From positions 1-64,000 of the forward strand of contig NZ_JATAAF010000011.1 in the NCBI RefSeq assembly GCF_030341905.1: a stretch of 64,000 nucleotides of DNA. Reading direction: 5' to 3'. A program made the position numbers and the translations under genes. The stretch's first letter is position 1, and every line of letters starts with the position of its first letter. Positions 6,726 to 60,445 of this stretch are shown in pieces. The notes under the pieces were generated by a model, which ran no database searches, had not been told where the DNA came from, and saw only the letters and a program-made list of their open reading frames with translations. The stretch is from Porticoccus sp. W117 (lineage in GTDB: Bacteria; Pseudomonadota; Gammaproteobacteria; Pseudomonadales; Porticoccaceae).

Positions 6726-6830
6726 ACCCTGAGCCAGTGAGGTTTCCAGACCTTTGGCCGCAGGGATAGCGGCCAAAGAGCGTACATGGACGTATTAACA
6801 GCGTGTCTGGAAACCTCACTGGCTCAGGGT
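6726..6830. repeat. Variable-stem element L1 (26-bp perfect arms, conserved core)
   Basis: Arms at 6726-6751 and 6805-6830 are a perfect 26-bp inverted repeat (ACCCTGAGCCAGTGAGGTTT and six more bases). They enclose a 53-nt core which, read on the minus strand, matches the cores of the elements at 10705, 18962 and 44344. The core carries two small hairpins with ATCC-type loops (TACGTCCATGTA and GGCCGCTATCCCTGCGGCC). The arms share no sequence with those of the other copies. It sits between rsgA and the rhodanese gene. Confidence 0.85.
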
Positions 6831-10704: not shown

Positions 10705-10804
10705 GGGCTTGGTTGTACTTTCTGCGACCGTGGCCAGCATGGATGCTGGCCTCGAGTCCCCAGAGATGGGTTCACGACGAGTCGCAGAAAGTACAACCGA
10801 GGCC
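10705..10804. repeat. Variable-stem element L2
   Basis: Perfect 18-bp arms GGTTGTACTTTCTGCGAC (10711-10728) and its complement (10781-10798) extend imperfectly to 24 bp. The 52-nt core read on the minus strand (TCGTCGTGAACCCATCTCTG onward) aligns with the cores at 6752, 18990 and 44373, including the two hairpins with ATCC/ATCTC-type loops. It lies between the divergent queG and nnr genes. Confidence 0.8.
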
Positions 10805-14151: not shown

Positions 14152-14158
14152 TCCCATT

Positions 14159-14227
14159 GTCATCCTGAGCGCAGCGAAGGATCTCTTGGCCGCTACAACG
14201 TCGAGATCCTTCGCTGCTCAGGATGAC
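14159..14227. repeat. Dispersed palindrome, family A copy 1
   Basis: The block runs from GTCATCCTGAGCGCAGCGAA to its near-complement ending CTCAGGATGAC, with GAGATCCTTCG inside. It lies between the amidase stop and mutL. Related palindromes lie at 35457, 56474 and 60358. It could stall or stop transcription, but it has no T run. Confidence 0.85.
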
Positions 14228-18961: not shown

Positions 18962-19068
18962 GCGGGAAGCGAAGCATCGCTTTCAGACCCGCTGTAAATA
19001 CTTCCATGTACGCTCTTTGGCCGCTATCCCTGCGGCCAACGGTCTGAAAGCGATGCTTCGCTCCCCGC
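18962..19068. repeat. Variable-stem element L3
   Basis: Arms at 18962-18989 and 19041-19068 form a 28-bp inverted repeat with one mismatch (GCGGGAAGCGAAGCATCGCT at the left). The 51-nt core CGCTGTAAATACTTCCATGT onward is nearly identical to the minus-strand core of L1 and aligns with L2 and L4. The second core hairpin is GGCCGCTATCCCTGCGGCC. It lies between hflX and hflK, a pair normally kept close. Confidence 0.85.
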
Positions 19069-44343: not shown

Positions 44344-44453
44344 GATCAGTATGCGGCGGTAATATTCCTGACACGCCGTGGATACATCCCTGTAGGCTCT
44401 TCTGCGGCATCCTTGCCGCAGACGGTCAGGAATATTGCCACCGCATACTGATC
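44344..44453. repeat. Variable-stem element L4
   Basis: Arms at 44344-44372 and 44425-44453 form a 29-bp inverted repeat with two mismatches, both of which become G-U pairs in RNA. The 52-nt core ACGCCGTGGATACATCCCTG onward aligns with L1-L3, with hairpins TACATCCCTGTA and TGCGGCATCCTTGCCGCA. The arm sequence (GATCAGTATGCGGCGGTAAT) is unique to this copy. Confidence 0.85.
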
Positions 44454-44485
44454 TTCATATTTGGCGTCGGCAGTGCTCAATTACC

Positions 44486-44572
44486 GTCATTGCGAGGAGC
44501 CCGCAGGGCGACGCGGCAATCTAGTGGCTTTTACCCGAAGACTCTGGATCGCCGCGCTTCGCTCGCGATGAC
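44486..44572. repeat. Palindrome family B copy 4 (long form)
   Basis: It opens GTCATTGCGAGGAGCCCGCA and closes with CTTCGCTCGCGATGAC, with GCGGCAATCTAG and CTCTGGATCGCCGCG as inner arms. This is the long form of the GTCATTGCGAG palindromes. Confidence 0.8.
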
Positions 44573-56407: not shown

Positions 56408-56473
56408 AAAGCTGCGGGCGGCGAGCAGATCAAGCGTGATTGCTATCCTGAGCGGCGCTCATTTGAAGGAACC

Positions 56474-56559
56474 GTCATCCTGAGTCGCGCAGCGACGTGA
56501 GGATCTCACAACTATCAGAGCCTGAGATCCTCACGTCGGCTACGCTTCCTCAGGATGAC
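56474..56559. repeat. Dispersed palindrome, family A copy 3
   Basis: It runs from GTCATCCTGAGTCGCGCAGC to CTCAGGATGAC with the inner arms GACGTGAGGATCTCA and TGAGATCCTCACGTC. Its right end overlaps the last codons and the TGA stop of the ABM gene on the minus strand. Confidence 0.9.
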
Positions 56560-60328: not shown

Positions 60329-60357
60329 TCGAACAGGTCACTCCTGACTTTCCCTAT

Positions 60358-60445
60358 GTCATCCTGAGGGAGCGTAGCGACCGTGAGGATCTCAGAGCCT
60401 TCAAGTGGTGAGATCCTCACGTCGGCTTCGCCTCCTCAGGATGAC
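60358..60445. repeat. Dispersed palindrome, family A copy 4
   Basis: This is the best preserved copy: GTCATCCTGAGGGAGCGTAG onward to CCTCCTCAGGATGAC, with ACCGTGAGGATCTCA and TGAGATCCTCACGTC as inner arms. It separates the acetolactate-synthase-like gene from the dehydrogenase. Confidence 0.9.

Follow-up and report, generated by a model that had tools for sequence, protein, structure and literature searches.

The four elements L1-L4 in a 64-kb window of the Porticoccus sp. W117 genome (contig NZ_JATAAF010000011.1; the window denotes this whole stretch) belong to a repeat with 61 copies in that genome, in which a core with two small hairpins, whose loops have the form ANGGAN, is closed by a long stem that is under strand-specific constraint to pair. 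The repeat is gained and lost between species and is related to the RNA family TwoAYGGAY. On balance, if with considerable reserve, we take it to be a dispersed, REP/BIME-like variant of TwoAYGGAY that serves as a docking RNA for CsrA. The folded strand would then be RNA, CsrA would bind it, and the transcribed copies would jointly act as CsrA docking or titration sites, as we infer from the sequences compared here. The main rival is a mobile element whose single-stranded DNA forms the same hairpins.

Elements of the window

The first-pass annotation had placed four elements in the window, each with a 51-53-nt core inside a long stem. This design was confirmed, and the coordinates were right within a few bases. 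L1 (6724-6832, plus strand) has 26-bp unbroken arms (6726-6751 and 6805-6830) around a 53-nt core (6752-6804), scored 114.2 bits under our covariance model, R1, and is antisense to both of its neighbours, a rhodanese-domain gene and the gene of an RsgA GTPase. L2 (10701-10808, plus strand), with 18-bp unbroken arms (10711-10728 and 10781-10798) and a 52-nt core (10729-10780), is flanked by diverging queG-like and NAD(P)H-hydrate epimerase/dehydratase genes; its hairpin H2 is a variant with a CCC/GGG stem and the loop AGAGAT, in which the GGA is lost, as in few copies.

L3 (18961-19069, minus strand) has an outer stem with 22-bp unbroken arms and a 51-nt core at approximately 18989-19041, and is located 12 nt past the stop codon of a gene for an HflX-like GTPase, with hflK following after 111 nt; it is antisense to both. 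Hairpin H1 (19017-19039, minus strand) has the 7-nt loop AGGGATA, and H2 (18999-19010, minus strand) reads UAC-AUGGAA-GUA, an ANGGAN hexaloop closed by C-G; 21 nt lie between the two GGA motifs, as counted on the sequence. L4 (44345-44452, minus strand; core 44373-44424, 52 nt) has a longest unbroken arm of 12 bp, with Watson-Crick pairs at 26 of the 28 stem positions, and stands between a ubiE gene and a DUF2063 gene in the same sense as both.

RNA folding gave z-scores of -12.0 for L1, -10.4 for L2, -12.8 for L3 and -8.7 for L4, and for each element none of 200 shuffles was as stable. When the window was scanned with R1, exactly L1-L4 were returned, all four of which are within the training set of the model. 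The strand that carries the AYGGAY-type loops, here called the informative strand, is plus for L1 and L2 and minus for L3 and L4. The loops had originally been read as ATCC: the two small hairpins are real and covary, whereas ATCC is the complement of the AYGGAY of the informative strand. That the four stems share no sequence is a fair description of L1-L4, but across the family the arms show weak position preferences (GAC/GTC at the base, TTT at about -8 to -10, GGG at about -17 to -19), and stems are shared in the high-copy relative G010.

Copy number and distribution

R1 was built from an alignment of 19 copies. The expectation that a mobile or structured element would occur in many copies with different stems, and not just in four, was borne out by the genome-wide covariance search: R1 found 61 copies in the own genome (G000), all of which contain the core on inspection by eye. 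BLAST with L3 alone gave 15 matches in the genome, two of them L3's own arms. R1 matched 45 times in the congener G001, 24 times in the congener G002 and at least 101 times in G010. Among the 38 genomes of the relatives set 14 were carriers, and in a sample of the class Gammaproteobacteria 49 of the 274 genomes and 44 of the 222 genera matched at E 1e-6 under stricter filters and with at most 14 places scored per genome; both counts include the own genome. Within a single family, the copy number per genome ranges from zero to at least 101.

A pattern for the core that leaves the stem free found at least 119 stretches among the matches listed. The titles of these were mostly gammaproteobacterial, with Marinobacter, Microbulbifer, Stenotrophomonas, Cellvibrio, Halopseudomonas, Rheinheimera and Haliea among the genera. 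Core-pattern matches were also seen in metagenome-assembled contigs titled Rhodobacteraceae, Nitratireductor and Klebsiella pneumoniae (loci L173, L118, L155, L163 and L166), and these reflect either horizontal transfer or mis-binned contigs. L3 had no match in the plasmid, phage and E. coli collections.

For the analyses below, the nine lowest R1 matches (48.1 bits or less) were left out of the G000-G002 set, which retained 121 of 130 elements, and 27 of the 180 matches in other genomes were left out as partial, cut by contig ends or oddly long, which retained 153.

Pairing and strand

In the 19-copy alignment 93.5% of the cells were paired and both partners had changed in 32 of the 39 pairs; none of the shuffled or slid alignments came close to the real pairing. 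Both-sided changes were also present in five of the eight pairs of H1, where 95.4% of the cells were paired, and in two of the three pairs of H2. We then counted wobble mismatches in the stems, read on the informative strand. A usable stem was present in 256 of 274 elements, and these contained 302 G.U and 49 A.C (75:14 in G000, 34:4 in G001, 35:6 in G002 and 158:25 in the others). Since R1 itself favours G.U, a control free of the stem was needed. The core pattern gave 129 matches, of which 13 were too close to contig ends, 98 had a stem and 18 had none; the G.U excess was again found (115 vs 22 A.C). A stem was seen at 98 of these 116 matches, compared with three of 1,190 trials at random positions. 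The bias was seen whatever the gene context, with G.U:A.C counts of 44:4 in copies that are sense with both neighbouring genes and 55:13 in copies antisense to both.

The claim that the stem is constrained for pairing far more than for sequence thus holds, by pair covariation as well as by the G.U bias. Because pairing is kept as the sequence changes and G.U is much more frequent than A.C, selection acts on one strand in its folded, single-stranded form; neither a process on double-stranded DNA nor a constraint on the other strand would give such an excess of G.U. Folded single-stranded DNA would have a matching preference, for G.T over A.C.

Loops and the proposed CsrA site

In the G000-G002 set, 103 of the 121 elements had two or more C-ANGGAN(N)-G motifs in the core, compared with two of 6,050 shuffled cores, and 108 contained at least two ANGGA. 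The 18 elements without two intact motifs include L2, and one broken-stem copy of G000 (C54:111735), read in the wrong register, was scored as a miss. In 208 standard-length cores of all sets, the H2 loop read A (207), N, G (207), G (207), A (208), N; this set was found in part by a pattern that fixes these letters, and the G000-G002 counts are the fair figures. The loops were more often A(G/T/A)GGA(T/C/A) than strict AYGGAY, and the H1 loop often had 7 nt.

According to a review on CsrA, the binding site is an ANGGAN hexaloop closed by AC/GU, with the SELEX consensus RUACARGGAUGU, and two sites are bridged across 10-63 nt, best above 18. H2 of L3 agrees with this consensus at ACA, GGA and GU, and the two ANGGAN loops, closed by C-G and about 21 nt apart on one strand, are what is described for published CsrA/RsmE sites. 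The same source states that a 7-nt loop can reduce affinity, and binding of H1 may therefore be weaker. The first-pass annotation had suggested that the core is recognised by a protein or forms a three-way junction; both are supported, as the core folds into such a junction and, with its two CsrA-type loops, resembles a protein site.

If the informative strand is made as RNA, it would form a long stem and, at its top, a three-way junction bearing two ANGGAN hexaloops, and at a distance of about 21 nt one CsrA/RsmA dimer could hold both loops. The stem would have only to pair, and its sequence would be able to drift by coupled changes, while the repeat would spread within genomes in the manner of REP/BIME, often as divergent pairs. 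A more far-reaching possibility, which we put forward tentatively, is that a mobile repeat has acquired a CsrA site as its core and, with dozens to more than a hundred scattered copies in a genome, makes up a distributed CsrA sink or docking array, the size of which varies between related species. The copy number of the repeat could in that case tune a global regulator, and the stems could diverge as only pairing is selected and as divergent partners with unlike stems would each fold alone.

The distribution of csrA neither proves nor kills the CsrA reading. A csrA gene was matched in 35 of the 38 relatives, including all 14 carriers, and in the class sample in 235 of the 274 genomes and 45 of the 49 carriers. 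The four carriers without a csrA match are G045, G106 and G137, which are 67-88% complete, and G233, which is 98% complete. Genomes without csrA are not significantly depleted among the carriers (hypergeometric p 0.13 for all genomes and 0.059 for genomes at least 90% complete), and a link between loss of csrA and loss of elements amounts to a trend only.

Were CsrA to bind the copies, unannotated repeats would in many gammaproteobacteria account for a share of the CsrA regulon and of CsrA titration, and mobile DNA would be linked to a master regulator.

Relation to TwoAYGGAY and other known systems

At the Rfam gathering thresholds the window gave a single tRNA only, and 18 other loci gave nothing. 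With a free threshold the best plausible family in the own genome was TwoAYGGAY (RF01731), at 40.6 and 35.2 bits against a gathering score of 43. RF01731 and CsrC belong to one clan, CL00106. The search of eight genomes with RF01731 resulted in 14 hits in G000-G002, nine of which were elements of this repeat, on the same strand, and five of a second family (see below); RF01731 hits were also obtained in G010, G027 and G029, the overlap with R1 being compared for G000-G002 only. Scores above the cut-off occurred in two of the eight genomes, with one hit each in G027 and G029. Thus the earlier statement that no named family has this design does not stand, as the TwoAYGGAY model detects elements of this repeat in the matching orientation, if mostly with scores short of its cut-off.

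TwoAYGGAY was listed as a probable RNA by Weinberg and colleagues in 2010 (PMC2864571) and was proposed to bind CsrA by Gardner and Eldai, the RMfam authors, who also described its external stem as poorly conserved. Like TwoAYGGAY, the repeat has on one strand a closing stem that encloses two terminal loops of the AYGGAY type; unlike it, the repeat lies mostly below the curated score. High copy number, divergent pairs and intergenic dispersal, all found here, are not mentioned in the parts of the TwoAYGGAY literature available to us. The repeat is related to TwoAYGGAY and works like it, yet is no member by curated score. If the copies bind CsrA, TwoAYGGAY, the function of which has been open since 2010, would gain a genomic setting and a simple test.

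CsrB, CsrC and RsmX/Y/Z are encoded by one to three dedicated genes per system with promoters of their own. The repeat resembles these sponge sRNAs in its repeated GGA in hairpin loops and its match to the CsrA consensus, but its copies are short and intergenic, number up to 100 or more and have no conserved promoter. Another likeness is to RsmU (PMC7694677), an RNA that arises from an mRNA 3' UTR in Xanthomonas and binds RsmA. RsmU itself is reported to be conserved in Xanthomonas only and to come from a single locus, and has three or four GGA motifs and binding that survives changes of GGA. Further sources were PMC4333381, PMC9788540, PMC7652899, PMC3733652, PMC4383904 and PMC3116915. A literature search, in which subscription journals were barely covered, found no paper describing this repeat family.

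Gain, loss and mobility

L1-L3 are absent from both congeners. The sites of L1 and L2 are empty in G001 and G002, the place of L2 being about 110 nt shorter in both, and at the place of L3 a different palindromic repeat, of the TGTCATCCTGAGC type, stands in G002. L4 is absent from G002, where 141 nt correspond to 940 in the window; in G001 its right flank had no match. The stretches of G001 and G002 syntenic with L1-L3 contained one R1 copy only (G001 827195-827302), for which G000 and G002 have an empty site. Elements common to sites of G000-G002 numbered ten with both flanks matching and an eleventh with one flank. Between such orthologs, the stems can be nearly identical (C12:174276 and C17:30458) or carry many coupled changes between 95% identical flanks (C1:253977), and wholly different elements can stand between flanks of 95% identity (C34:24298). 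The G000 copy C54:111735 has a broken, chimeric-looking stem, and its G002 ortholog is intact.

This turnover, with copies from none to at least 101 and reciprocal presence and absence, is what a REPIN-type DNA mobile element would show. The informative strand would on this account fold as single-stranded DNA, a transposase or recombinase acting in trans would recognise its hairpins, the mobile unit would be the divergent pair, with singles as its remnants, and the likeness to CsrA sites would be coincidental. We regard such an element as the less probable explanation, albeit one with a real claim. Neighbouring elements less than 400 nt apart were divergent in 37 of 43 cases, and divergent pairs occurred at 22 of 43 G010 loci; these 43 loci count one place twice (L071 = L310), some G010 singles are cut by contig ends, and the third match of L341 looks spurious. 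The copies are intergenic and often stand beside stop codons, and the strand bias persists in antisense copies. Compensatory changes are also reported for the spacers of published REPINs. On the other hand, no match to PF01797 (Y1-type, RAYT transposase) was found in G001 and G002, which have 45 and 24 elements, and three were found in G000; mobilisation by RAYT was rejected, as two carriers have no such match. Two tests did not establish a target duplication, which together with terminal inverted repeats would mark a MITE: (i) shared words of at least 7 nt occurred at 16 of 178 single copies, with about 7.5 expected, and (ii) a second test gave 29, with a mean of 18.7 and a maximum of 31. The REPIN-type account also fails to explain why A, G, G and A are fixed and both N positions free in both loops. 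We presume that the elements are moved by a mobilising enzyme.

High copy number, extragenic position, often near stop codons, inverted doublets and compensatory changes in a paired spacer are common to the repeat and to REP, BIME and REPIN sequences; REPs have 20-40 bp and a GTAG or CGTC tag, while the repeat has about 108 nt, a two-loop core, no GTAG/CGTC tag that we noticed and the two carriers without a Y1 transposase match.

Identical H1 six-mers were present in none of 16 divergent pairs in the genus and in three of 21 elsewhere (permutation p 0.17), and the arm identity of divergent partners gave p 0.04; the proposal that partners must have unlike stems is weak on these values and was abandoned. 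At L310/L071, close to a contig end (G010:C135), the element is surrounded by a perfect inverted repeat, 60 bp or longer, which is probably an assembly artefact.

Genomic setting

With neighbouring genes taken from a simple codon-usage gene caller, 118 of the 121 G000-G002 elements overlapped no called gene. Among 116 elements with both neighbours, 43 were antisense to both, 34 were sense with both, 21 lay between convergent and 18 between divergent genes. Alignment of the flanks of G000-G002 together revealed no strongly conserved sequence, promoter, terminator or U tract outside the stem; in G010 some subfamilies extend further outward than the stem. Given the unbiased orientation and no conserved promoter or terminator, the route by which antisense copies such as L3 would be transcribed is not evident.

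Of 66 antisense copies, 29 had a stop codon no more than 20 nt away. Taken with the high stability of the stems, this would agree with plain 3'-end hairpins that protect or end transcripts, a task that any stable stem performs and for which the loops are irrelevant. We consider this unlikely, as the loops are conserved as A-N-G-G-A-N, such closeness to a stop was seen in only ten of 57 sense copies (Fisher p 0.0019) and the flank alignment contains no conserved U tract.

Coupled change of the stems

Whole subfamilies in G010 have one stem in common at different places, which indicates that the stem travels with the element. In four stem clusters, comprising 54 of 60 distinct elements, double Watson-Crick changes affected 127 cells, clustered at -9 to -15 and not independent of one another; 44 of the 127 were transversions, which cannot pass via G.U. 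One-sided changes in the same clusters numbered 44, of which 28 were to G.U, two to A.C and 14 to other mismatches. The coupled change could be due to strong selection, to arm-to-arm correction or to both.

The excess of double over one-sided changes (127 vs 44), with its transversions, and an ortholog pair in which both outer arms are replaced (C55:39963; flanks 87-92% identical) would suit neutral palindromes whose arms are kept alike by template switching during replication, or quasipalindrome correction, with folding unselected. Such a process predicts equal numbers of G.U and A.C, in contrast to the observed 302:49 and 115:22 and to the 28:2 among one-sided changes in G010. As the sole cause it is disfavoured and quite improbable, although it may act alongside selection. 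The repeats provide a natural experiment on how stems evolve when pairing is all that is constrained, which can be followed through strand-specific G.U counts.

The earlier suggestion that a stem arises at each insertion as a copy of flanking DNA has the difference of stems between most G000 copies in its favour, but we reject it as very improbable, since the arm sequences are absent from the empty sites examined (those of L1, L2 and L4 in G002) and one stem recurs at many places in G010. The stems conserved within subfamilies, which had been named as the mark of a conventional repeat, thus exist in G010, while those of G000 mostly differ.

Variants and other repeats

An insert of about 50 nt within the H1 loop was observed in G000 (C45:125543 and C12:282928), G001 (C1:2244696, C1:1459437 and C1:1342547) and L098:5469. 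These inserts form extra hairpins, the stems of which differ between copies yet pair. In a variant of about 122 nt (G000 C1:219122, C17:30458, C12:217390 and other copies) an extra small hairpin follows H2; the G002 ortholog of C17:30458 is without it, so that the hairpin can be gained or lost inside an otherwise matching element.

The second family, which looks unrelated, also has two C-ANGGAN-G loops in a closing stem; across 134 alignment columns its copies share about 97% identity, and one of the few positions that vary is the N of the first loop (C, T or A). Three copies are present in G000, among them L354 (C26:18706-18839), and four in G002 (L355-L358); none was found in G001 or the other relatives searched. 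The TGTCATCCTGAGC-type palindromic repeat occurs in the window at 14157-14227, approximately 60356-60445 and 56472-56559, with many copies in the genome and the congeners. A further repeat stands beside L4 (window positions approximately 44485-44572) and is 87-88% identical to other places in the genome.
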